Positions 1 to 12,014 of a stretch of 42,573 nucleotides of DNA are shown in pieces. Within the stretch, counting starts at the first letter, position 1, and each line of letters starts with the position of its first letter. The notes under the pieces were generated by a model. The model was not told where the DNA came from and made no database searches. It worked only from the letters and a program-made list of their open reading frames with translations. The stretch comes from Nitrospira sp. (GTDB lineage Bacteria; Nitrospirota; Nitrospiria; Nitrospirales; Nitrospiraceae), in assembly GCA_005116965.1 (NCBI GenBank), contig SWDG01000027.1:547797-590369 (forward strand), read 5' to 3'. The translations under genes and the position numbers were made by a program.

Positions 1-536
1 TCCATCGGCGGCATGCAGATCCGCGCCGGCGCATAGACCATCGAGATCACCGACATGACTTCGCGAAAGACTTGAATTGACCACTCTAACTTATCGATAT
101 TATAGAACTGTTCACTTCGTATAATGCGCTTTGCCTCTTCAGCATTCTGAATCAACTTCGCCATCCGCTGATGGGTCACATCGCAGAGCGCCAGCTGCAA
201 ATCCATCTCATTCGCGTTGAGATCCCGCTTCTTAGAGAGCTTGCGCAATCGGTCGAGCTGCTGCGGCACCCGGCGCAGAACCTTCTTCAAAAAGTCCTCG
301 CTGAAGTACCAGTCCCACATTTCACAGTTGATGTCTTTTTGAATGACCGCATGGCCAGCCTGGCGGAGAACGGCAGTGAGAGAGGGAAGACTTAGATAGG
401 GTTCCGAGGGAAACCAATCGGGCGGGAAGATCAGCATGACCTTCATCTTCCGGCCACTGGTGGCTTCGAGCTGTTGGCGATTCAATAGGATGAGCTCTTT
501 GGACGCTCGCTCACCCTTCGAATACTCTATTTTCAT
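1..536 (-). CDS. B12-binding radical SAM protein, N-terminal part (runs off the left edge)
   Basis: The gene is open from an ATG at 536 to the window edge (about 178 codons visible). After some 27 residues comes MKVMLIFPPDWFPSEPYLSL, then a region with 'LTAVLRQAGH'. This is the usual start of the cobalamin-binding Rossmann domain of B12-dependent radical SAM enzymes (hydrophobic strand, PP turn, then a helix of the type that picks the oldest or closest system). The CxxxCxxC cluster motif would lie beyond the edge and is not seen. An internal ATG at the KVMLIF strand is a possible alternative start, but the residues before it are also present in the truncated copy at 683-721, which favours the longer form. 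Reaction and substrate cannot be told from this part. Confidence 0.75.
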   Translation of the reverse strand, partial: MKIEYSKGERASKELILLNRQQLEATSGRKMKVMLIFPPDWFPSEPYLSLPSLTAVLRQAGHAVIQKDINCEMWDWYFSEDFLKKVLRRVPQQLDRLRKLSKKRDLNANEMDLQLALCDVTHQRMAKLIQNAEEAKRIIRSEQFYNIDKLEWSIQVFREVMSVISMVYAPARICMPPM

Positions 537-553
537 CGAGAACTAGCCCTTCC

Positions 554-721: not shown

Positions 722-1057
722 GCCGGCCTGATCCTTCCCTCAAACTGGCTCAAACTAATAGCAAAGCCAATGAGTTAGGCTTGAGAAAAGATATTGTACG
801 GGGGTACGAGAAAGAGATGCAAGGGTGGGAGGGGCGGATAGGTGCTTTTCTGTGCTCGCTGAGTGCGCACGCAAGAATCCATTGGATTTTAAGACGATTG
901 GTGGTGCTCCCTCAATGCGCGCAGCCTGGAAACCACCTGCCCGCCCCTACAGATAGGAGGAATGGGAAAGAGCTCGGTCAATGCGCTTGGCTATGGCTGC
1001 CAAAGTTGGGCAGTAAGGTGAACCCGACGCCGCAGGCTCACGCTCGACATCTCGCTC

Positions 1058-1072
1058 ATATATCTGATATAT
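1058..1072. promoter_or_regulatory. Perfect AT-rich palindrome upstream of the small RHH-like gene
   Basis: ATATATCTGATATAT is a perfect 15-base palindrome around one central base, followed by another ATATATA run at about 1079-1084. It lies 30 bases before the start of a small DNA-binding-like protein, so it could be that protein's own operator. This is inferred from position and symmetry only. Confidence 0.35.
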
Positions 1073-1102
1073 AGAGCATATATATTCTTTGAGAGGTCGC
1101 AT

Positions 1103-1384
1103 ATGCCCCAAGCCAATGTGCAAGTCCCTGTGTTGATGAGCCCGGCTCAGAAACGCCGTCTGGCCCGCAAGGCCAAAGCCGCGAACCTCACCATGGGGGA
1201 ATTGCTCCGCCAGGGAGGAGAACGATTTTCTCCCGTAGAAGATGACGCCGCCCTAGATCAGTTCGCCAAACAGGTCACGAAGGCCACTCAACGAGCTATC
1301 CAGTCGATCGATCGAACTTTGGCATTGGTCGCACAATCGGAAGCTCGCATCCAAGCCCTGACGAAATCACACAGAGGGCATTGA
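1103..1384 (+). CDS. Small ribbon-helix-helix-like protein
   Basis: A 93-residue basic protein. Its N-terminal third (VQVPVLMSPAQKRRLARKAK, then ANLTMGELLRQ) has the strand-helix-helix pattern of ribbon-helix-helix DNA-binding proteins, as in antitoxins and plasmid mobilisation or partition accessory proteins. The rest is helical and could pack against a partner. The start ATG overlaps a CATATG just after GAGAGG, a plausible ribosome binding site. Its stop overlaps the region of the next gene's start, so the two are almost certainly co-transcribed. Function is not known; antitoxin, autorepressor and relaxosome accessory are all possible. Confidence 0.6.
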   Translation: MPQANVQVPVLMSPAQKRRLARKAKAANLTMGELLRQGGERFSPVEDDAALDQFAKQVTKATQRAIQSIDRTLALVAQSEARIQALTKSHRGH

Positions 1385-1386
1385 TC

Positions 1387-1587
1387 ATGGGCCTCACCGA
1401 ACGAGTCTGGGACGCATTTGCCAGAACGATCCGATTGGCCGACAAAGTCGAACAACTCACCGCCACCGTCGCCAAACAACAGCACCACATCGAAGACCTG
1501 ACCGGTCGTGTCATACGGCTTGAAACTGCGCTCGAACTTGCTCTTGGATCGAAACGACCCAAGAAACTGTCCGGACCATCTTCTTAG
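1387..1587 (+). CDS. Small coiled-coil protein paired with the RHH-like protein
   Basis: A 66-residue protein starting at the ATG two bases after the upstream stop; a TTG at 1381 in the same frame is an alternative that would overlap the upstream gene. The middle (KVEQLTATVAKQQHHIEDL, then VIRLETALELAL) has clear heptads and should form a coiled coil. The tail is basic (GSKRPKK). I do not recognise the family. Tight coupling to the RHH-like gene suggests a two-component complex, perhaps toxin-antitoxin-like or a plasmid or element accessory pair. No toxin fold is evident. Confidence 0.5.
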   Translation: MGLTERVWDAFARTIRLADKVEQLTATVAKQQHHIEDLTGRVIRLETALELALGSKRPKKLSGPSS

Positions 1588-1898
1588 CCGGCACAATTGA
1601 TGACGGTTCCTCTCAGAATCGCCGAAACAACAAATCTCAGGGTGGAAAGACCGGCGGAAAGAACTGACCCGCGCGCGGGAACTCCTCTGCGACGCCATGT
1701 CCGGCGGGAAGAATTATAGCAGCAATCTGGCCTCCCTCGGCTGCTACTTCTTTCACTTTGCTATGGTCGCCAGAGTCAGTCGGTGATAGGCAGGTCACAA
1801 ACATGCACAAAACAAGATCGGACCCCAATTCATTTTCTAGCCTATTTGATTTTCAAGACAGTTGTTGCCCCTAATGTCCCCATCTTGCAGACTTACCT
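1588..1898. other. Intergenic stretch without a supported gene
   Basis: This is the convergent gap between the small RHH/coiled-coil pair and the 3' end of the lanthipeptide-like operon. Short open frames exist on both strands, but none has a convincing ribosome binding site or recognisable family. No clear terminator hairpin was seen. Confidence 0.5.
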
Positions 1899-4289
1899 TC
1901 AGCGCCATCCCTCATTTTCGTACAGGGGCATGCAGGCATGTCGCGGGGACTCCAAGTCCGCTGCCAGGAGGCCGACCCCAATGTCGCCCTTATAGAGACT
2001 GTTGCTCTGGAGTGAACCGGCACGAACACTCAGTGCCGCGCGCTCGGCGAGATCGCGAGCACGATCGACCCAGGCTTCCTCATTGTTGAGCTTGTACAAG
2101 TTCAGCAAGGCATAGGCGCGTCCTGCAAGGCCGCAACACAGGTCGAAGGTTCCAAGCGGCGCCTGATAGGCAGCCCATGCAGCCCCGGTCGCCAACTCTG
2201 CATATTGTTCATTGCCGAAACGTCGGTAAGCGAGCGTCCAAAGGTGAGCGAGTCCGGCGGCCCCATTGCACCAGGTTTCCCACAAGGCGCTTACGTGGGA
2301 ATACGGTCCCACCACAGAAGGCCAGCGTAGGCCAGATCCTATCGGGGTTGCAAGGGCGGCGAGCTCGGCCAGGCGAGCCTCGAGGCCATCAGGAATTGTG
2401 CTGCCGGACGCTTCGCTCCAACAAAGAATGGCGTATAATTTGCCTGCCCAGCCGTGAGCTGCGCCAAGAACCGTTCGCGATAAAGCTTCGCCAATGGGAT
2501 CTGACAAGACAAGCTCACGCCAGATTTCCGAGCACAGGCCATCGCCTAAGGATCGAAGAGATTGCTCCTCAGGTGTAGACGGTTGCACATCGAGAAGAAA
2601 ACAACAGCCGAGCAGACTGCCCGCACGTCCAAACGACACGTCGGAGTCCAACGACGCGATTTGACCGGCATCAACGAATGCGCGAACTGCGCATCGCTGC
2701 GACGTTTCATCGCCACGAGCATGAGAGACCAGGGCTTCGACACAATGAACGCCGCTAGCAGTGTGATAAAGAGACGTAGCGCCAGTGGACGGTGGGGTCA
2801 GCTCGTAGCCCTTCCCCCAGAACGCATCTGGGGAGGAATACTGTACCTCTCGAACCGCTCTATTGGACCACAGATCGGCCAAGGCAAGAAGCTGATCGTC
2901 CTCACGGATACACGCCATCCTCAGCAACGCATATGCAATCCCGGCCGCGCCACTGTGAAACGATGCTGTAGGAGCCTGAAGCGGCGCGTCAAGCAACGGA
3001 CCGCCAATCGCCACTCTCTCAAGGATCTCATCTAGGAGAAGCCCCGCTTGAGTAGGCCGACGCTCGGAACGGTAATTATGCGGCGACTCAGTCGCTCGAT
3101 CTGCCTTGGCAGCGACCTGCAGATTGAGCAGGAACTCGCGAAGATCCGCAAAACGGTCGGCGACATCTTTCGCAAGGGCGCGGCGCAGGGTGATCTCGAT
3201 GTGGGAGAGTCCAGATACACCATGCTCACGAAAGGAAAGGGGAGGGTCCTCGACAACTTGGCGCAGCATCTCCGCTTCTTCCAGCACAAAAGTATGGGTA
3301 TGCGCTCCGACGAGAAGAAAATATAGAAGCGCTGCAAGCGAGTATTGCTCTCCAGCAGTAGATGGCGGCGGGGAAGGTATGGCAGCAAGTCGAGCCCTCG
3401 CGAGCTCCGGCTCCATGTACAGATCGACGACGCCGCGCTGTGTACCGACTCGTTCGTCCGCCTTGGTTGTGAGTATGGAAACGCCGAAGTCAATCAACTT
3501 AACCCGGTTGTTCGCATCGACGATCACATTCCGCGGATGGACATCGCCGTGCACGACTCCCTGACAATGGAGATGCGCATACGCTTCTGCGATCTGCTCG
3601 ACGATGCAAAGGAGACCTACCCGTCCTGCATGGCTCCGACTCCGAGCCTCGGTGGCGGCGATGTGTGCATCCACGCCTCGGCACCACGACAACGCAATGA
3701 ATGGACGCCCATCCTCGTCGCCGTGCCCGAGCAGTCTGGGCGTCACCGAGCCATCGAGGCGATTGAGAATGGAAGCTTCGCGAGCGAGTTGTGTTGTCAG
3801 GCGACGCTCAGCCCCGCGACGTGCGACCTTGAGAGCGACGAGCGTTTGATCTGGCGCCCTCGCTAGGTAGACCTCAGTATCGACGACGACGTCGATTGGC
3901 TCGATGATTAAAAACCCTCCAATCGAATCGCCGCAGCCGTAGTTGCTCTCGATCGGATTTTCAAGTTCCGAGCCGACTGCGACGAGAAGCTCCGCATTGA
4001 GCAAACGCTGTAAGGCAGGGAACGCGTTCTCGAGCGTCTCGCGCGCATCCAGGTTCGCCACAGCACTGTAACGGATTACTGCGTCGACAAGCGTCGCTGG
4101 CGCGCGAAACATTTCGAGGAGCCTTGCGGTTTGTGTATCCACAATCATCGATGGCATCCTTGAGCGCGGGCGCGTCAATACAAAGTCGCCTTCGCGATAT
4201 TCGAACCTATTTGCCGATGAGACGGGCACATCCTCGACTGACGCGAGAATGACATCTGCGGGCAGGACGAATGCTGACTCGATCCACAT
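1899..4289 (-). CDS. Protein kinase-LanC cyclase fusion (class IV-like lanthipeptide synthetase without its lyase domain)
   Basis: A 796-residue protein starting at the ATG at 4289, one base after the upstream stop; a longer open frame reaching back to 4487 only shadows the upstream gene. Residues about 25-110 look like a PqqD-type winged helix, the RiPP leader-binding fold. Residues about 125-390 form a Ser/Thr kinase: VALK Lys154, HGDVHPRN with Asp249 and Asn254, and DFG at 267-269. Residues about 440-796 form a LanC barrel: HSGAAGIAYAL, AHGWAGKLYAIL (His612), ETWCNG (Cys674), CCGLAG (Cys718, Cys719). LanC enzymes add Cys thiols to dehydrated Ser/Thr to make lanthionine rings. The third zinc ligand, normally His in CHG, is Cys, as in the CCG subgroup of LanM enzymes such as ProcM. 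Class IV enzymes (LanL) are lyase-kinase-cyclase fusions; here the lyase seems to be the separate upstream gene. Substrate unknown. Confidence 0.75.
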   Translation of the reverse strand: MWIESAFVLPADVILASVEDVPVSSANRFEYREGDFVLTRPRSRMPSMIVDTQTARLLEMFRAPATLVDAVIRYSAVANLDARETLENAFPALQRLLNAELLVAVGSELENPIESNYGCGDSIGGFLIIEPIDVVVDTEVYLARAPDQTLVALKVARRGAERRLTTQLAREASILNRLDGSVTPRLLGHGDEDGRPFIALSWCRGVDAHIAATEARSRSHAGRVGLLCIVEQIAEAYAHLHCQGVVHGDVHPRNVIVDANNRVKLIDFGVSILTTKADERVGTQRGVVDLYMEPELARARLAAIPSPPPSTAGEQYSLAALLYFLLVGAHTHTFVLEEAEMLRQVVEDPPLSFREHGVSGLSHIEITLRRALAKDVADRFADLREFLLNLQVAAKADRATESPHNYRSERRPTQAGLLLDEILERVAIGGPLLDAPLQAPTASFHSGAAGIAYALLRMACIREDDQLLALADLWSNRAVREVQYSSPDAFWGKGYELTPPSTGATSLYHTASGVHCVEALVSHARGDETSQRCAVRAFVDAGQIASLDSDVSFGRAGSLLGCCFLLDVQPSTPEEQSLRSLGDGLCSEIWRELVLSDPIGEALSRTVLGAAHGWAGKLYAILCWSEASGSTIPDGLEARLAELAALATPIGSGLRWPSVVGPYSHVSALWETWCNGAAGLAHLWTLAYRRFGNEQYAELATGAAWAAYQAPLGTFDLCCGLAGRAYALLNLYKLNNEEAWVDRARDLAERAALSVRAGSLQSNSLYKGDIGVGLLAADLESPRHACMPLYENEGWR

Positions 4290-4290
4290 G

Positions 4291-5445
4291 TCAGTCCACC
4301 GTTTCCTGCTCGCACCAGAGCCCGCTCGTAGGAACCCAGGTCTCCGTATCGATTCCGTCAAGGCGCAGCCTATCCAAGGCGAACTGCCAGCACCCTGAGT
4401 CCGATCGACCCTTCGCGGCGAGCATATATTCGGCAAGCCTGTTCGCGATCCATATACGCCAGCTTCCGTGGACCGGCCCGTCCACAAGTCGTTGCCTGGC
4501 TGGAGGGTCTATTCCCCATGACAACAGCCCATCGCGTGTGATCTCTGCGGTGAAAGGTACGCCATGTGGCGGCATGCCTCGCAAGCGATTTTTTAACTGC
4601 GCTGCCGCGACATGAAGACTTTCCAATCTCGAAAAGTAGGCGACTAGTTTGTCCGGACGGCAGAGCCCATGCAAGTGTCGCCCGACTTTGAATCCCAGCA
4701 CACCCGGCACCCTTGCAAGGGTAGTCGCCGTCGCGAGTAGAGCATCGGGAAGGGCGTTACACGTCGGGCTGATGTAGAGCTTGTACCCCATCGCATTCGA
4801 TTCGATCCTGTTGCCGCGAGGACTCCACATTCTCCAGAAGCGCTGGTCGCGAAGCCGATCTTCGATCCAGCCCTCATCCAGCGCCTTCTGAACCGGTTTA
4901 TCACCACCCAGCCCCAGGAACTCCCCAATCGCTTCCTCACTTGGCAACCGGTTCTGCCATGAGGGCGACAAAGGCTTTCGCCCATAGCAGTACAGCCGCA
5001 TTGCGAGCTCGCCTTGCGACAAGCCTTCCAATGTCTGCGCGTATTGTAGAGCTGCGACGGACAGCCGTCCAATGGTTCCCAGATCGTGATCCGTAAGCTC
5101 AAGCAATCGCTCAATGGCCTCGGGTCCTGAATGGAACGCGCCACTGTGCTCGATTTCAAGCACACCATCAAGTACGAGTCTCGTGACGATGGTGGCTGTC
5201 TTGCCGTCAAGGTGCGTCCGAATGTAGGCAGGAACAGGACCGGGTTTCGCGAGCGTAAGGAGAAGCAGCGCCGTGTCGGTCGACACAGTGCGCCATTGGA
5301 GACCAGAGTCTTTATGAGGGCGAAGGTAACCATATAGGGAGTTGTCTGATTGCGCATCGCCGACAAGCTCGCGCTCGGTGGACGAAAGGTTCTCACCCAG
5401 GACGAGCTCATACGACGGGTTCGCGCGGAAAGTGCCATCAATCAC
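4291..5445 (-). CDS. Putative separate lyase component, HopA1/LanL-lyase-like
   Basis: A 384-residue protein with a GTG start at 5445 preceded by CGAGG. Residues 36-100 (LYGYLRPHKDSG, STDTALLLLTLAK, LVLDGVLEIEH) again resemble a PqqD-like winged helix. Residues about 205-384 contain MGYKLYISP, GVLGFKV, DKLVAYF, GMPPHGVPFTAEI, LLSWGIDPP, SWRIWIANRLAEY and ALDRLRLDGID. That order (a strand with GxKLY, a Lys-containing strand, a GxPFT loop, an SW/SF helix and a final 'GID' helix) resembles HopA1-type proteins and the lyase half of LanKC/LanL, where phosphorylated Ser/Thr is eliminated to a dehydro residue. The resemblance is by eye and catalytic residues are not proven. It is translationally coupled to the kinase-cyclase gene (TGA-C-ATG), which supports a joint complex. 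Alternative: a RiPP accessory protein without lyase activity. Confidence 0.5.
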   Translation of the reverse strand: MIDGTFRANPSYELVLGENLSSTERELVGDAQSDNSLYGYLRPHKDSGLQWRTVSTDTALLLLTLAKPGPVPAYIRTHLDGKTATIVTRLVLDGVLEIEHSGAFHSGPEAIERLLELTDHDLGTIGRLSVAALQYAQTLEGLSQGELAMRLYCYGRKPLSPSWQNRLPSEEAIGEFLGLGGDKPVQKALDEGWIEDRLRDQRFWRMWSPRGNRIESNAMGYKLYISPTCNALPDALLATATTLARVPGVLGFKVGRHLHGLCRPDKLVAYFSRLESLHVAAAQLKNRLRGMPPHGVPFTAEITRDGLLSWGIDPPARQRLVDGPVHGSWRIWIANRLAEYMLAAKGRSDSGCWQFALDRLRLDGIDTETWVPTSGLWCEQETVD

Positions 5446-5500
5446 GCGTGCACCTCGAACTCTGTCGTAGGATGCGACAGGCGCCCCCGCTGTGGCTCAT
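5438..5500 (-). CDS. Possible 20-residue Ser/Cys/Thr-rich peptide
   Basis: A tiny frame, MSHSGGACRILRQSSRCTRD, lies between the 113-aa gene and the lyase-like gene and overlaps the latter's start. It has two Cys, four Ser and one Thr, the composition needed for lanthionine rings. It has no room for a leader, and the AAGG before it is only three bases from the ATG. Most likely chance; recorded only because the operon needs a substrate. Confidence 0.12.
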   Translation of the reverse strand: MSHSGGACRILRQSSRCTRD

Positions 5501-5532
5501 TGACCTTGTATCCAGGTATAAAGTGCTCTATT

Positions 5533-5874
5533 TCACTTCGAGCTCGCTAGTTTTTTTTCAACCGCCGCTTGCGCAACGGCGATCACTGCGAGCTGCTCCT
5601 CCAGTTGCTTCCGAAGTATCGGTAGAATCCTGACATCTACGACCTTACGAAAATCAAGCGGCTCAGTGTTTGCGCACATGATGTCTTCGATTCGCTCCGA
5701 TCGACCGGTGCACCGGTCGGTGACGGGTGAACAATTGCCGCAACCATTGGCATCGGCGAACCGCTCTCTCAAATATTCGCGCGCAAGCACTTCCGCGTCA
5801 TGCGCCGCAGCCTCTATGACAGTCACCTGCCCACATGGCAGTTGAACCCTCAATGCACGAGCTTCAAAAGGCAT
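5533..5874 (-). CDS. Cys-containing 113-aa protein, candidate substrate or partner of the lanthipeptide-like enzymes
   Basis: The start at 5874 is set by a very strong AAGGAGG six bases upstream. The protein has an N-terminal part rich in beta strands (ALRVQLPCGQVTVIE), then a short region with four Cys (45, 48, 55, 67) among Ser49, Thr52, Thr56, Ser59 and Thr70. It ends in a long amphipathic helix (LPILRKQLEEQLAVIAVAQ). It is the first gene of the operon, 87 bases before the lyase-like gene. The Cys/Ser/Thr block could be an internal core peptide for ring formation. Alternatively the CGNC...C...C pattern could bind a metal and the protein could be a chaperone or scaffold. RiPP cores are usually at the C-terminus, which argues for caution. 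I do not recognise the family. Confidence 0.55.
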   Translation of the reverse strand: MPFEARALRVQLPCGQVTVIEAAAHDAEVLAREYLRERFADANGCGNCSPVTDRCTGRSERIEDIMCANTEPLDFRKVVDVRILPILRKQLEEQLAVIAVAQAAVEKKLASSK

Positions 5875-6054
5875 ATTAGCCTCCTTATGGTTATTATTCA
5901 GCAAACAGCACAATCAATAGTTCAAGAATCCCGACTTACCTAGTGCTACGTATAATGCATTGGCACAATAGGCTGCTGGCTTGGGAAGGTCAACAAAAAT
6001 CTGGTGGGCCTAAAGTCCTCTTCCGTGGACTCAAAATAGTTGATCCGGATGAAG

Positions 6055-6078
6055 AAAAGGGGTCGGGAGTCTTTATAT
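6055..6078 (+). repeat. REP-like repeat, copy 1 (GGGTCGGGAGTCTTT type)
   Basis: The sequence contains GGGGTCGGGAGTCTTTAT. The same core appears at 7907-7930, 11547-11570 and 12667-12686, always between genes and mostly close to transposase fragments. It fits a short intergenic sequence left by REP-associated (Y1/RAYT) transposases. Confidence 0.5.
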
Positions 6079-6128
6079 GAATGTACCGCAGCAAGCTGAG
6101 TATCGCGGAGTGATGTTGCCGTGCTCTC

Positions 6129-6515
6129 TTACCTTCCCTGAGACAGGTGCATGACAGCGGTTTCTGCGTGTTTTGTGGCTACGTCAGCATGGCCCGCTTT
6201 CCCATGCTCAATGGCTGCTTTCAGATGTGCGATCCCTTCGTCCACATGCGGGCGATCCTTGCCACCATTCAGAGCATGTTGCAGCGCGGCTTCCGCATGT
6301 GCCACGAGTTCCGCTATGTGACCCTGTTTGCTATGGTCCACCGCTTCTGTCGCGTGATCGAGGGCGTCCGTGCGGTTCTGCGCTTCTTGACGCAGAACGT
6401 CACGCCGCGCCCCGCCCCCTCCTCCGAATACCGGTTGCATAGGCAACACGATGGTGGCGACTACGGCTAGGACTCCGGCCAGCGTGACAGCTCGTTGCGT
6501 CGTAGATCGTCTCAT
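6129..6515 (-). CDS. SmbP-like small periplasmic metal-binding protein
   Basis: A 128-residue protein from ATG 6515, chosen because GGGAG lies eight bases upstream and the signal peptide then begins at once (MRRSTTQRAVTLAGVLAVVA). The mature part is built from repeated helices with regularly spaced His and Glu: LDHATEAVDHSKQGH, ELVAHAEAALQHAL, HLKAAIEHGKAGHADV, KHAETAVMHLSQG. This is the pattern of SmbP, the small copper-binding periplasmic protein first described in the ammonia oxidiser Nitrosomonas europaea. Likely role: buffering copper or other metal ions in the periplasm. A paralogue is encoded divergently at 6755. Its glycine run (GGGGG) follows the signal peptide. Confidence 0.8.
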   Translation of the reverse strand: MRRSTTQRAVTLAGVLAVVATIVLPMQPVFGGGGGARRDVLRQEAQNRTDALDHATEAVDHSKQGHIAELVAHAEAALQHALNGGKDRPHVDEGIAHLKAAIEHGKAGHADVATKHAETAVMHLSQGR

Positions 6516-6668
6516 CGGCATTCTCCCTTCCCAAGAGAAGTGAAAAGACCTGCATTGACCACCAGAAAGCACCTTTCGTCTTTCGGGTGTATACATTTTA
6601 CTATCTCCCTCCTTCCAGTTTATACAGTTCCTGTAGGTTCACCCACCAGGGAGTGAGGCATAACATTC

Positions 6669-6696
6669 TTGACAGCTTGCGAAAACGCTGTGTAGA
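6669..6696 (+). promoter_or_regulatory. Sigma70-type promoter candidate for the rightward SmbP-like gene
   Basis: A perfect -35 TTGACA (6669-6674) is followed after 16 bases by TGTAGA (6691-6696), placing transcription start about 50 bases before the ATG at 6755. It lies in the divergent gap between the two SmbP-like genes. Confidence 0.5.
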
Positions 6697-6754
6697 GTTT
6701 GATTTGTCTACAGTCTTTTTAGGCCGTGCATTCTAACCATGTCGGGGGAACAAT

Positions 6755-7096
6755 ATGATCAGTAGATACTACCGTGCCATCCTCATCGTGGTTGCGCTTG
6801 GAGCGTTCGTGAGTGTGCCCATGGTGAATGCCTATCCGACCGCAGCGGGTAATGTGAGCCACGCCATCGATCACGCGAAGCAAGCAGTGGCCCATGGTAA
6901 AGAGGGGCATGTTGACGAGCTTGTGAAGCATGCGGAGACGGCGCTTGATTTTGCGGAGATGGGTGGCAAGGGCATAGAGGTGAGAGAAGGCATTCATCAC
7001 CTTAAAGAAGCCATCGCACATACTAAGGCCGGTCACGCTGACGTGGGAGTCGAACACCTTGAGGCCGCCCTCAAGCATTTGTCCGAGATCAATTGA
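6755..7096 (+). CDS. SmbP-like small periplasmic metal-binding protein, second copy
   Basis: A 113-residue protein with GGGGGA before the ATG and a signal peptide (RAILIVVALGAFVSVPMVNA). The mature chain repeats the same helical unit as the divergent neighbour: HAIDHAKQAVAHGKEGH, ELVKHAETALDFAEMGG, HLKEAIAHTKAGHADVG, HLEAALKHLSE. The His spacing (roughly i, i+4, i+7) suits metal coordination. The pair is probably an old duplication that diverged in sequence while keeping about four helical units each. The expected cargo is copper or a similar soft metal, by analogy with SmbP. Confidence 0.8.
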   Translation: MISRYYRAILIVVALGAFVSVPMVNAYPTAAGNVSHAIDHAKQAVAHGKEGHVDELVKHAETALDFAEMGGKGIEVREGIHHLKEAIAHTKAGHADVGVEHLEAALKHLSEIN

Positions 7097-7236
7097 TGGA
7101 CATTATCCCGAGTGCATGCGACTAAGTATTGGGGTTGCGTCTTATTCTGTGTATGCCAGCCGATCAGTGGCCATCTATACGTAAGCAATGGGTTCAGATC
7201 TTGTTTCTTGTATCGCCTGTGACCTAGACGATACCC

Positions 7237-7434
7237 ATGGCTCGACCACTCCGCATCGAATTCCCTGGGGCGCTCTATCACCTGGCCGCCCGAGGAATAC
7301 GCAACAAGACATCGTGTGAAGGGGTCACGAGTTGGCCAAGACAACACAACGAGGGAAATTCAGGGAGCGCATCTGGCTTCGAGATTGAAACACTTCGCGA
7401 GATACGCTCCCGAGACATGCCCAAGAGACTCTAG
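7237..7434 (+). pseudogene. N-terminal fragment of a Y1 (REP-associated, RAYT-type) transposase
   Basis: The first residues, MARPLRIEFPGALYHLAARG, are the well-known start of Y1/RAYT transposases. The similarity ends after about 25 residues and the frame continues as unrelated sequence to a TAG. The HUH motif and catalytic Tyr are absent, so it is a decayed fragment. REP-like repeats lie at 6055 and 7907 on either side. Confidence 0.7.
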
Positions 7435-7451
7435 CGGACTACTGTGCGGAA

Positions 7452-7535
7452 TCACGTTCCTTTCTTGTAGACCCATATGCCAGCGCCCATAAGTCCAAGC
7501 AACGCGACTGTCAATGTTAAGAGGTTAATATCCAT
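7452..7535 (-). CDS. 27-residue single-span membrane peptide
   Basis: ATG at 7535 is preceded by AAAGGAG with a good six-base spacer. The peptide is one hydrophobic helix (INLLTLTVALLGLMGAGIW) ending in VYKKGT, so it should cross the inner membrane once with a short positively charged cytoplasmic tail. The strong ribosome binding site and clean helix argue for a real gene despite the length. No partner is obvious; the neighbours are transposase debris. Confidence 0.5.
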   Translation of the reverse strand: MDINLLTLTVALLGLMGAGIWVYKKGT

Positions 7536-7767
7536 GGTGGCTCCTTTCATCTAAAAGCCTAACTTTAACCATAGGCGCTTCCATCTGGCTTAGCGAGATT
7601 TATAATGTCCCTCACCTGCATGGCGAGCGCATCCATCCCTTCTTCATGATTTCAACCACTTGGCCAACCATGGGAATGGGACAGTTCGACAGAAACCTGC
7701 GGGTGGAGCGTAGCTATCCATTGCCTGCCGATGAAATATGTCATCATTTTCAAAGAATGCAATGAGA

Positions 7768-7788
7768 GTCAGATCTTGTACCGTGCAT
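7768..7788 (+). repeat. GTCAGATCTTG repeat, copy A
   Basis: GTCAGATCTTGTACCGTGCAT shares 19 of 21 bases with copy B at 7962. Copy B has the perfect palindrome TGCACCGTGCA, which is imperfect here. Probably part of a decayed mobile sequence. Confidence 0.4.
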
Positions 7789-7906
7789 GCCACAGAAACA
7801 ACGGTTCGGCCATGCTCTTCGACACCCAAGCAGCCGCTATGCATTGCCCCTCGAGACGAATCCGTTCCCCGTCTCGTTGAGCCATTTTGGCTTATCTAAG
7901 AAATAT

Positions 7907-7930
7907 AAAAGGGTCGGGAGTCTTTATTTG
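7907..7930 (+). repeat. REP-like repeat, copy 2
   Basis: AAAAGGGTCGGGAGTCTTTA shares the core GGGTCGGGAGTCTTTAT with copy 1. It lies 470 bases after the transposase fragment at 7237. Confidence 0.5.
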
Positions 7931-7961
7931 ATAGCCTTGAGTAGCGGAAACTGGAAGGTTG

Positions 7962-7982
7962 GTCAGATCTTGCACCGTGCAT
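7962..7982 (+). repeat. GTCAGATCTTG repeat, copy B
   Basis: GTCAGATCTTGCACCGTGCAT contains the palindrome TGCACCGTGCA and matches copy A at 7768. It is followed at 8015-8024 by a run of ten C. The 7536-8095 gap otherwise holds no supported gene. Confidence 0.4.
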
Positions 7983-8095
7983 CACGCCGAGAAGCAGGCT
8001 TGGCCTCGTTCTCACCCCCCCCCCAGCAGACGCCATACCCTCCGGCCATAATTCCTCGCAGTTGAACCGCTCTGCCAGGCTATGCCCGACGAGCA

Positions 8096-8683
8096 CTAGG
8101 CCGCTGGGCGCATACGATTGGCAAATGCGAGCGGCGCTGCCTTTCTGTCTGACGCAGCAACGGTCAGCAATGGCCGTGCGGTATAACTGGTCTGCTGCGC
8201 GACCCAGACTGCGGGAATTTGTTGGATGGCGATGTTGTAGAGGTTGACGGACTCATTGTAGAACTCACGACGATCGGCAATGGTGCTTTCCAGGACGGAT
8301 ATGCGTTGCTGAACCGCCAGGAACTCTTGATTGGCTTTGAGATCCGGATACTGTTCCGCGACTGCGAAGAGCTGCCCTAACGCGCCTGCGACTTGATTTT
8401 CTGCCTTCGCCTTATCATCGATATCGCGGCTTGCGCCATAGGCATTGCGGGCTCTGATGACGGCTTCAAGCGTCTCCCGTTCGTGCACCATGTAACTGTT
8501 GCACACCTCGACGAGTTTGGGCAGCTCGTCATGTTGCTGCTTTAAAATGACGTCGATATTCGACCAGGCCTTGTCGATATTGTTCGACAGCCGAACCAGC
8601 AGGTTATAGACACCGACTACATAGGCGATCAGCAAAACCAGCCCGATGCCCAACAGCGATCCCACGACTAATGTGCCGTTCAT
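8096..8683 (-). CDS. lemA: LemA family protein
   Basis: A 195-residue protein with AAAGGAG upstream of its ATG. One N-terminal membrane segment (VVGSLLGIGLVLLIAYVVGV) is followed by the signature LemA region: YNLLVRLSNNIDKAWSNIDV, then KQQHDELPKLVEVC, then ARNAYGAS, then LKANQEFLAVQQRI and RREFYNESVNLYN. LemA proteins are membrane-anchored helical bundles of uncertain biochemical role. It is the second gene of a two-gene unit after the zinc-finger/GIDE protein (21-base gap). Bacterial GIDE-type proteins are known to occur beside LemA, which points to one membrane-associated complex. Confidence 0.88.
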   Translation of the reverse strand: MNGTLVVGSLLGIGLVLLIAYVVGVYNLLVRLSNNIDKAWSNIDVILKQQHDELPKLVEVCNSYMVHERETLEAVIRARNAYGASRDIDDKAKAENQVAGALGQLFAVAEQYPDLKANQEFLAVQQRISVLESTIADRREFYNESVNLYNIAIQQIPAVWVAQQTSYTARPLLTVAASDRKAAPLAFANRMRPAA

Positions 8684-8704
8684 GGATATGCTCCTTTGCC
8701 AAGG

Positions 8705-10006
8705 TCACGAGGGGTCAAGGGTTCTCACGTATCGATTGAGGAACAGGGCCGCGCAGGCCGCCACACACACCAGCCCACCCAGGAAACCGGCCCACATCTG
8801 CCAGGTCAATCGAGACAGTAAATCTTTTTCACTGGGATCAGAAATGATAAAGGCATGGTCAGGGCTGTCGCCGATAAAGAGCCTGGACTCGTTGGGAATG
8901 TGGTGGCTCATCCCCTGAGGCGCAAGGGCGGTTCCTAGGACATAGATGGATTCGTCCTGCCTGATAAGGGCTTCCCGACACCGCAAGGTCTTGCTGCCCA
9001 TCCATCCATGAGTGGCAATCCCTAATCGCCGTACGCCGGCGAGAGCGAGAGGAGGCAATTCTCCCAGCCAATTGGCTTTGGAAATCCGCTCGTCCGGCAA
9101 GATTAATGTGGCGCCAGCAGGAACCACGAGCACCCGCCCGGTTGCATCACGCACGAAAAATGGCCGTTCCGATGTGCCGCTCGCAATCGTTTTCCAGCGG
9201 GTGTTTTTCCAAGAACGGACCCGCTCTTCGACCGCGTAGGAGTAGAACACGCAGGGCAGTTCGTTGAACGGCGAGGTCAGAAGCTCACCCTCGGCCTCTG
9301 CCTGTCCACTGATTTCAACCAAGCCAAGGGCGAGCGAACGGATGGGCGACGTCGGAATGCTTTCAATGAGGCGCTTGCGCTGCTGAACTGTCCAGCCATA
9401 CCAGAACAACCCGAGGCCTCCGACTGCGCCACCTATGAGGTAGAACAACATGGCATCCGGCGGTCGGATCCAGCGGGTGGTGTGGAGGAATTTCTGGATT
9501 CCAGCGACGAAGATGAGCCCCGCGATGGCTAGCGCTACTCCAAAAAAGAGACCCCAAAACCACATATTCCCTGGGGCGGCGTTTCCGCGCGTGAGCTGAT
9601 CATCAGCGATGGGCTGGAGGGTTTTCGTCCGAGCAACAGCGCGGGCATAAAGCTCTTGCTCATCGATCCGGATTGTCACTGCGGCTCCCTTGTACGTCTC
9701 GTTGAGGTGAGTCAGGCATCCACAAGAAAGCCACCATCCCTGACAAACATTGCACCTTTCGATCATAGTCCCGGCTATCGCCTCAGATTCCATCTGAATG
9801 GCGCATCGAGGGCATTTCGTCTGCGTTCGGACCGCCACACCTCCACTACTGCCCACTGCTTGATTGAGAGACAGGTAATCTTCCACGAAGCAATTGACTT
9901 CTCCGGCATCGAGCCACAACCCGTGGCCTGAGGGGCAGACATCGAGATCAGGACCTTGGGCCGTTGGGAGCCTGAGCAGGTCGTTGTCGCAATCGAGACA
10001 TTTCAT
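8705..10006 (-). CDS. Membrane protein with two zf-TFIIB-type zinc ribbons and a GIDE-like domain
   Basis: A 433-residue protein taken from ATG 10006, because the cysteine motif starts right there; a TTG 45 bases upstream is possible. Residues 1-35 hold a TFIIB-like ribbon (MKCLDC, then CPSGHGLWLDAGE). A second ribbon follows (TKCPRC, then CNVCQGWWLSCG). Two membrane segments (FWGLFFGVALAIAGLIFVAG and AMLFYLIGGAVGGLGLFWYG) precede the GIDE-type region: SLALGLVEISGQAEAEG, LTSPFNELPCVFYSYAVEER, FFVRDATGRVLVVPAGA. A last helix (GFLGGLVCVAACAALFL) ends it. This layout mirrors the mitochondrial MULAN/GIDE ligase membrane module without its RING finger. Co-transcribed with lemA. Function unknown; membrane stress or quality control is a guess. 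Confidence 0.7.
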   Translation of the reverse strand: MKCLDCDNDLLRLPTAQGPDLDVCPSGHGLWLDAGEVNCFVEDYLSLNQAVGSSGGVAVRTQTKCPRCAIQMESEAIAGTMIERCNVCQGWWLSCGCLTHLNETYKGAAVTIRIDEQELYARAVARTKTLQPIADDQLTRGNAAPGNMWFWGLFFGVALAIAGLIFVAGIQKFLHTTRWIRPPDAMLFYLIGGAVGGLGLFWYGWTVQQRKRLIESIPTSPIRSLALGLVEISGQAEAEGELLTSPFNELPCVFYSYAVEERVRSWKNTRWKTIASGTSERPFFVRDATGRVLVVPAGATLILPDERISKANWLGELPPLALAGVRRLGIATHGWMGSKTLRCREALIRQDESIYVLGTALAPQGMSHHIPNESRLFIGDSPDHAFIISDPSEKDLLSRLTWQMWAGFLGGLVCVAACAALFLNRYVRTLDPS

Positions 10007-10299
10007 AGAAAAGAGGTCTTTCAACTGTAGCAAGATTCGAGGCTGTGTCAATTAAGTCGGCCTGTAACTGCTCAACAAATCAGGTAAAGCAAATAGGAGA
10101 GGCTGTTGTTCTCATGACTTCGCGGGCTGATCGGCCATTCCATGCTCGGCGGACAAACGACAAGCGTGATTTAGCTCCCCTCGACCGTTCTTTCTTTCAC
10201 TGCGCAAGAGCGGCCCTCATCAGAATCCCTTGCGTTCGAGCATTTCCAAGATATACGTTACATCGAGATCACGCTGAACCATGACAGGAGAAGAAACAG

Positions 10300-10918: not shown

Positions 10919-11527
10919 GTGGGACGACGATATCGCATCAGCTCCGCCATCACGCTCTCATACTTGCTCTCCACCCTGCTCATTCTGAATGGATGCTCCC
11001 CTACACTATCTCCCTCCGCCGTCCACTTTCCCATCACCAACGGCTCCCATACGCGGTTGCCTAGCGCGCAGCAGCGCATCCTGATCTGGGGAGATCCGCT
11101 CCTCGCCCGTGTAGCTAACGAATGGCTCAGGTCTCATCACTATTCCAACATCCTCATGCCCCCTCAGATTCCCTACCTCCCATCGGATCGCCAGGTGGCG
11201 CTTGCGGCCGCGGCAGAGGTAAATGCCACATTTGTGCTCATCCTGGAGCGGGAGGAACTATAGGAAGGGGCATTGATCCAAGCGAGCTGTGGCGCACGCT
11301 TCAACATTACCGTCGATGTGCGAGGTCTTTCAGTGGAACACGAAGCAAGCGTCCTGCGGGGCGGCGCTCATTACCCGCACTGCGTCGAACCTAACGAGCA
11401 GACCGTTCGGCATCTGACTTGCCAAGCCCTCGCTACCGCCTGGGGCTTCCGCTCAGCCGGACAGCTTGAGATTCCCTCACACCTGGCATGTACGGCTGGC
11501 CAGAACACCCCCGCGCCAAACCGCTAG
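10919..11527 (+). pseudogene. Lipoprotein gene interrupted by an in-frame TAG
   Basis: From GTG 10919 the frame encodes a lipoprotein signal (ITLSYLLSTLLILNGC). It continues with IWGDPLLARVANEWLRSHHY and ends at TAG 11261-11263 after LILEREEL. The same frame then stays open for 88 more codons (FNITVDVRGLSVEHEASVLR, HLTCQALATAWGFRSAGQLE) to a TAG at 11525. Two halves in one frame with no shift mean one nonsense mutation in an otherwise intact gene of about 202 codons. Alternatives are readthrough, or restart at TTG 11273, which would lack export. A TATAAT at 10905-10910 is so close to the GTG that the message would be leaderless or nearly so. Confidence 0.65.
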
Positions 11528-11546
11528 ATCCACACACGGGATGAGT

Positions 11547-11570
11547 GAAAAGGGTCGGGACTCTTTTTTA
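11547..11570 (+). repeat. REP-like repeat, copy 3
   Basis: AAAAGGGTCGGGACTCTTTT is the same core with one change (GAC for GAG). It abuts the truncated transposase reading frame that begins at 11571, so the repeat marks the deletion or insertion junction. Confidence 0.5.
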
Positions 11571-12014
11571 CGCCGCTGGATCACCGTCACCCACACCCAA
11601 CGCTGGCATTCGCACCATAACACCGCCGGCACTGGTCCGGTCTATCAAGGCCGCTTCAGGTCATTTCCAGTCCAAACCGATGCGCATTTCCTGACAGTCG
11701 CCCGCTACGTGGAGCGTAATGCGCTGCGGGCCAAACTGGTCAGACAGGCTGAAAATTGGCGATGGTCTAGTTTGTGGCGACGAGCCCAAGGCGATCCAAA
11801 AATCACGACCTGGCTGAGTGACTGGCCGGTGGACCTACCACGAAATTGGGGCGCGCGGGTGAATCGTCCTGAAACCGGCGAGGATTTGGACAGGCTCCGG
11901 ATCAGTGTGCAGCGTGGCCGTCCATTTGGTGAAGAAGGCTGGGTGCGCCGCATGGCGAAACGGTTTGGCATGGAGTCAACCTTGCGCCCTCGGGGACGCC
12001 CGAAAGGCTCTTGA
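11571..12014 (+). pseudogene. C-terminal fragment of a REP-associated (Y1/RAYT) transposase
   Basis: About 147 residues: RRWITVTHTQRWHSHHNTAG, VYQGRFRSFPVQTDAHFLTV, ARYVERNALRAKLV, WRWSSLWRR and the tail ESTLRPRGRPKGS. This is the second half of a RAYT protein. The first half with the HUH motif is missing and replaced by a REP-like repeat. The fragment is of a different subgroup from the N-terminal piece at 7237, so the two are not one split gene. Not expected to be active. Confidence 0.78.

Follow-up and report, generated by a model that had tools for sequence, protein, structure and literature searches.

A predicted two-protein lanthipeptide synthetase with a separate lyase and a fused kinase-cyclase in Nitrospira

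Can the lyase of a lanthipeptide synthetase be encoded apart from a kinase and cyclase that are themselves fused? This question is raised by a stretch of Nitrospira sp. DNA (the window: 42,573 nucleotides, GenBank assembly GCA_005116965.1, contig SWDG01000027.1), where three co-directional genes on the minus strand, from 5874 to 1899, encode proteins of 113, 384 and 796 amino acids. We propose that these very probably constitute a two-protein lanthipeptide synthetase together with its precursor. The original prediction, made from the sequence alone, had read here three coupled genes for a small Cys-containing protein, a lyase-like protein and a kinase-LanC fusion, and all three open reading frames (ORFs) were confirmed on the minus strand:

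5533-5874, minus strand: 113-amino-acid Cys-containing small protein, the predicted precursor; ATG start at 5874; adjoins the lyase gene upstream, as at nine of ten loci.
4291-5445, minus strand: 384-amino-acid stand-alone phospho-Ser/Thr lyase (predicted); GTG start at 5445; based on a 10-member alignment and on profile matches to LanKC lyases and LanY.
1899-4289, minus strand: 796-amino-acid fusion of a RiPP recognition element (RRE), a kinase and LanC; ATG start at 4289; based on Pfam, NCBIfam and alignment.

A Shine-Dalgarno-like AAGGAGG precedes the start of the 113-amino-acid ORF at 5874, and a single base separates the TGA stop of the lyase gene (4293-4291) from the ATG of the kinase-LanC gene (4289). 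The kinase and LanC motifs noticed earlier are borne out by Pfam (kinase, 3e-18; LANC_like, 4e-23), which among the three proteins finds them only in the one of 796 residues, while Pfam and NCBIfam scans of the other two gave no usable match.

Searching a genome collection with the 384-amino-acid protein returned one relative, in a Holophagales metagenome-assembled genome (locus L002, 47% identity), where two small Cys proteins come before the lyase relative and a kinase-LanC gene (43% identical) comes after it. Plasmid searches added the same enzyme pair in Cupriavidus oxalaticus (L004) and Paenibacillus peoriae (L005). Against 396 Acidobacteriota genomes, a profile of the lyase gave matches in 6 genomes at 7 loci, including the genome of L002, and at all six of the other loci a kinase-LanC gene adjoins the lyase. 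A separate search of these 396 genomes with a kinase-LanC profile led to the identical 6 genomes and 7 loci. As such, the neighbourhood survey that the original prediction had proposed for the three-gene set shows the enzyme pair co-occurring at all ten distinct loci, spread over four phyla (Nitrospirota, Acidobacteriota, Pseudomonadota and Bacillota), and because the gene set is conserved over such a range the operon is no chance layout. Nine of these loci have the order lyase, then kinase-LanC, on one strand; the exception is Cupriavidus, with the kinase-LanC gene on the opposite strand, 0.9 kb away, and an oxygenase gene in between. Moreover, pairwise distances among the lyases correlate with those among the kinase-LanC proteins (r 0.86). 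The phage and viral collections searched contained no relative.

The 796-amino-acid protein divides into three domains:

3954-4289, minus strand: RRE (winged-helix, PqqD-like), residues 1-112; AlphaFold2 model with a predicted local distance difference test score (pLDDT) of 83, searched with Foldseek and VIA-align.
3090-3911, minus strand: Ser/Thr protein kinase domain; Pfam, with K154, E171, H247, D249, N254 and D267 invariant in the ten aligned proteins.
1902-3002, minus strand: LanC cyclase domain with CCG motif; Pfam, with H612, C674, C718 and C719 invariant in the same alignment.

For each of the ten fusions, the best NCBIfam E-value belongs to the LanL (class IV) model. That of the window matches positions 191-803 of the 851 in this model, so that the match begins at about the end of the model's lyase domain, and with 153 bits it does not reach the cut-off of 650. 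Its kinase is nearest to Pkinase (66 bits, versus 31 for APH), and the LanC match covers 337 of 350 Pfam model positions. Since C674, C718 and C719 are invariant, the zinc site is of the Cys-Cys-Cys (CCG) type. The protein corresponds to a LanL minus its lyase domain, plus an N-terminal RRE fold and a CCG zinc site. The modelled N-terminus (residues 1-116, the source of the pLDDT given above) retrieved in structure searches almost exclusively RREs among its top matches (TigE, TbiB1, MccB, PqqD, ThcOx, NisB, MibB), with Foldseek E-values from 2.2e-3 at probability 1.00 and VIA-align Z-scores up to 8.9; as modelled, it appears to adopt the winged-helix, PqqD-like RRE fold. In Cupriavidus, a paralogue of this RRE is joined to a 2-oxoglutarate (2OG)-Fe(II) oxygenase next to the lyase, consistent with a role in substrate docking, by which the domain would deliver the substrate to more than one enzyme.

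What, then, is the 384-amino-acid protein? Two parts of it could be distinguished:

5110-5445, minus strand: RRE-like N-terminal domain of the lyase, about residues 1-112; VIA-align to the TigE RRE and profile match to the RRE of its partner.
4351-4803, minus strand: catalytic part of the lyase, about residues 215-365 (K222, Y224, K253, R263, D265, Y270); invariance, and register with the catalytic residues of CaoY and LanKC.

The original prediction had called this protein lyase-like by resemblance. Profile-profile comparison supports this from two sides: for the C-terminal half, eight LanKC-type lyase domains are matched at probability 75 (P 2.5e-5, z 10.0 over column-shuffled profiles) and seven class V LanY/HopA1-like lyases at probability 84 (P 7e-6, z 10.2 over column-shuffled profiles), with no match to other domains of the LanKC and LanY enzymes. 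Compared directly with one another, LanKC and LanY reach only probability 3 and z 3.2. In all ten lyases K222, K253 and R263 are kept, and Y270 in nine. Aligned to enzymes whose catalytic residues have been assigned roles (PMC9486802, PMC10604976), K222 corresponds to K65 of ThurKC (Arg187 in CaoY), Y224 to the Tyr of LanY (His67 in ThurKC), and K253, R263 and Y270 to K219, R229 and Y236 of CaoY, respectively. The four main catalytic positions are spaced 31/10/7, as in LanY. Read from the alignment, the active site combines a mixed K-x-Y motif with the spacing of LanY, and its putative Lys general base, the basic phosphate site and a Tyr, all in register, speak for membership of the OspF/HopA1/LanKC phospholyase superfamily. 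The fold adds weaker support. Among the matches listed, those that span model residues 177-362 belong to the LanKC enzymes ThurKC (Z 6.4 over 126 residues) and SalKC (Z 6.3 over 127), and HopA1 ranks third by Foldseek E-value (8e-3); the fold alone is undecisive, because unrelated small folds score similarly. Of the two outcomes that the original prediction had said would refute it, a 384-amino-acid protein matching no lyase or HopA1 fold and a gene set that does not recur elsewhere, neither was obtained. Neither the PF17914 (HopA1/LanY) model, at E-values up to 10, nor the NCBIfam LanL model matches the protein. A PDB search gave a kinase-domain chain of LanKC length, in register at E 1.7, which alone we do not count as evidence, and weak phmmer matches to HIV gp41 (E 0.04 and up) were taken as chance. 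The N-terminal part of the lyase aligns with the TigE RRE over residues 3-104 (VIA-align Z 6.9, in a low-confidence model), and in profile comparison the N-terminal half matches the RRE of the 796-amino-acid protein at z 7.9; it is probably a second RRE.

Upstream of the lyase, small Cys-containing ORFs are present at nine of the ten loci, two of them at L002, making ten proteins of 57-263 amino acids with 2-25 Cys. Two segments of the window's copy are of interest:

5839-5868, minus strand: leader motif FEARALRVQL, residues 3-12 of the 113-amino-acid protein; one of 668 control ORFs scores equally in a leave-one-out test; beta-strand and RRE docking predicted.
5665-5742, minus strand: predicted core, residues 45-70 (Cys 45, 48, 55 and 67; Ser/Thr 49, 52, 56, 59 and 70); read from the sequence and by analogy with the repeat cores of L005, L015 and L016.

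The N-terminal motif of alternating hydrophobic residues is common to the ten proteins (FDVKELMIDI and PKVKDLGVTV, among others, elsewhere). When each precursor was left out in turn, at most one of 668 other ORFs from these loci scored equally for eight precursors, whereas for the remaining two the number was 4 and 8 of 668; the test is flattered by the segments having been chosen by eye. Three precursors carry tandem Cys/Ser/Thr core repeats: that of L005 has three copies of NDCGITCLASCG or near, each preceded by a leader-like segment, that of L015 seven CYASGG-type units, and that of L016 several CTDCTTQQFSICGTSP units. An NCBIfam scan of seven precursors gave no credible match, scattered low scores of the L005 repeat protein being judged chance. 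A conserved C-terminal helix motif was also considered, and is not claimed, as only 4 of 10 precursors pass the leave-one-out test.

By analogy with these families, the two enzymes would act on one substrate. The N-terminal strand of the 113-amino-acid precursor would dock on the RRE of the kinase-LanC protein, and probably on the RRE-like domain of the lyase as well, so that the same leader may be bound by both enzymes, together or in turn, possibly within an enzyme-enzyme complex. The kinase would then phosphorylate Ser/Thr of the central Cys-rich core, and the separate lyase would eliminate the phosphate to give dehydroalanine or dehydrobutyrine, with K222 stabilising the enolate, K253 taking the alpha-proton, and R263 and its neighbours holding the phosphate. 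Finally, the LanC domain with its three-Cys zinc site would close the (methyl)lanthionine rings by addition of Cys thiols. The product may remain attached to its scaffold.

Several points weigh against this. The structure model of the 384-amino-acid protein, built from two sequences, is of low confidence (pLDDT 52), and PDB hmmsearches gave unrelated best rows with the lyase profile and, likewise, nothing convincing with the RRE profile. Next to the enzymes at one locus, L018, no Cys-rich precursor could be found. Since the precursor cores are not conserved between loci, the substrate was assigned from leader, position and repeats. Furthermore, the operon neighbourhoods examined have no peptidase or exporter gene in common, in line with the earlier remark that neither a transporter nor a protease lies nearby, which is correct for the immediate surroundings, and this leaves maturation and release unexplained. 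Enzyme activity, product and rings are themselves predictions.

If rings are only predicted, could the pair dehydrate the small protein while LanC adds another thiol, much as eukaryotic LANCL does with glutathione, without intramolecular rings? The PDB sequence matches of the fusion do include LANCL1, labelled there as glutathione S-transferase, and the missing exporter and protease would fit such a role. However, the tandem repeats of the precursors put Cys beside Ser/Thr, e.g. in GGCYASGG and CTDCTTQQFSICG, as one would expect of internal rings, and neither H612 nor any of the three Cys zinc ligands varies, so we consider this unlikely. Still less probable is that the pair writes and irreversibly erases phosphate on a cellular protein in signalling, with the Cys protein as a regulator or metal-binding accessory. 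The natural targets of OspF/HopAI1-type lyases are indeed kinases (PMC9486802), and 57-263 amino acids is long for peptides. Yet the RRE is a fold for docking RiPP precursors, the small proteins have a leader motif and core repeats, and the Cupriavidus locus holds a full lantibiotic dehydratase too. That the operon is a decayed class IV cluster, its lyase domain cut off by rearrangement, can hardly be credited: the fusion does resemble LanL minus its lyase, but the split is kept at 33-44% identity over four phyla with frames open and catalytic residues intact, and the lyase, unmatched by the LanL model, has an N-terminal domain of its own.

How does the predicted two-protein synthetase relate to known lanthipeptide classes? 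A layout between classes III/IV and class V had been suggested from the sequence, and the comparison agrees with this, pointing to a synthetase variant between classes IV and V whose lyase matches both branches. With class IV LanL (VenL type) it shares a Ser/Thr kinase followed by a zinc LanC domain, besides the NCBIfam match; however, the lyase is a separate gene at ten of ten loci, an RRE replaces the N-terminal lyase, and the zinc ligands are Cys-Cys-Cys instead of Cys-Cys-His. Class V (LanK, LanY, LanX/LanC; cacaoidin, lexapeptide) likewise has a separate lyase, of the HopA1/LanY type that the window's protein resembles in profile comparison, with the same spacing and R-x-D plus Tyr, whereas here a Pkinase-nearest kinase is fused to LanC where class V has a separate APH-type LanK, Lys222 (in all ten) stands where LanY has Arg (CaoY R187), PF17914 is unmatched, and RREs are present. 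Class III LanKC resembles the window's enzymes in having a Lys where the enolate is stabilised (ThurKC K65), a Lys general base and the order kinase, then cyclase, but here the lyase is unfused, Tyr replaces His at the acid position, and the zinc ligands absent from LanKC are kept. The three-Cys CCG zinc site has been reported for the multi-substrate ProcM-type LanM enzymes of class IIa (PMC10027976); unlike those, the present system has a kinase and a lyase, and the LanM dehydratase domain is absent. In class VI, the streptococcal LanKCb combines a kinase with truncated domains for lyase and cyclase in a single protein (PMC10676316), in contrast to two proteins and a near full-length LanC match here. 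Judged by its sequences, the operon falls outside the definitions of classes III, IV, V and VI, yet it would seem to work in a class III-V-like way.

A lyase-type dehydratase combined with a CCC cyclase (L-CCC) has been tallied computationally as an undescribed combination, with 8 peptides (PMC11251773), though RREs and the split between lyase and kinase-LanC go unmentioned there. The VenL lyase model used for that tally would probably miss lyases of the window's type, because the NCBIfam LanL model misses this one. We found no earlier description of the split RRE arrangement in the open-access literature searched, and within that literature the arrangement is new: a split synthetase whose lyase and kinase-cyclase each seemingly carry their own leader-docking domain. 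This contrasts with the statement that the core enzymes of classes II-V have no identifiable RRE (PMC10604976, 2023). Because the family models in use miss both lyase and precursors, such clusters have probably been overlooked. Moreover, earlier sequence alignments left the LanKC-type and LanY-type lyase branches unjoined (PMC9486802), and as the present lyase family connects both, their common origin becomes testable. Going further, RRE-lyase and RRE-kinase-LanC(CCC) pairs might be a separate synthetase class, with the lyase family as the sequence link that points to a common ancestor of the LanKC and HopA1/LanY types, and with products that are perhaps scaffold-attached stapled proteins, neither cut nor secreted; we regard this as a real possibility, with the chances somewhat against it. 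If active, the combination of a CCG cyclase and precursors that have tandem ring cassettes and as many as 25 Cys would be of use in peptide engineering.

Other arrangements of these domains were seen alongside. Besides the pair, Cupriavidus (L004:7333-14060) carries a full lantibiotic dehydratase (Lant_dehydr_N and C), a Cupin_8 protein and the RRE-2OG oxygenase fusion, so that one precursor is adjoined by two different dehydration systems. Plasmids of Deinococcus (L047:2865-6382) and Pseudonocardia (L052:2583-5731) have a phosphotransferase beside a protein in which a HopA1-like lyase and LanC are fused; here the split is the reverse, with a separate kinase and a lyase-cyclase fusion. A Salipiger plasmid (L030:2884-4455) encodes a LanKC-type lyase and kinase in 523 amino acids, apparently without a cyclase domain, and in an Acidobacteriota genome (L031:6965-9284) a HopA1-family protein is followed by a stand-alone LanC.

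The operon is a rarity in its own lineage. Among 396 Nitrospirota genomes the lyase occurs in one, and among 79 congeners the LanC protein occurs in one, in both cases the genome of the window itself; the latter makes horizontal gain of the operon likely. A relative (G206) differs over the 9-kb stretch that contains the operon (about 862-10160), and its flanks are conserved. The GC content at third codon positions of the three genes is inside or near the range of other window genes, and base composition therefore gives no sign of transfer. ORF fragments like transposases associated with repetitive extragenic palindromes (7237-7434 and 11466-12014 of the window) suggest a hotspot of gene gain.

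To the left of the operon, two large proteins in tandem resemble B12-binding radical SAM enzymes (window 1-541 and L033:14318-18333) and are kept in related genomes whether or not the operon is present. As tailoring enzymes they were rejected, since relatives occur in 18 of 20 related genomes, compared to the single congener with the LanC protein. A small protein at 1103-1384 on the plus strand has a weak, below-cut-off match to the mobilisation protein NikA. On the other side, two divergent genes of the SMBP (small metal-binding protein) family adjoin the operon, at 6129-6596 on the minus strand and 6755-7096 on the plus strand.
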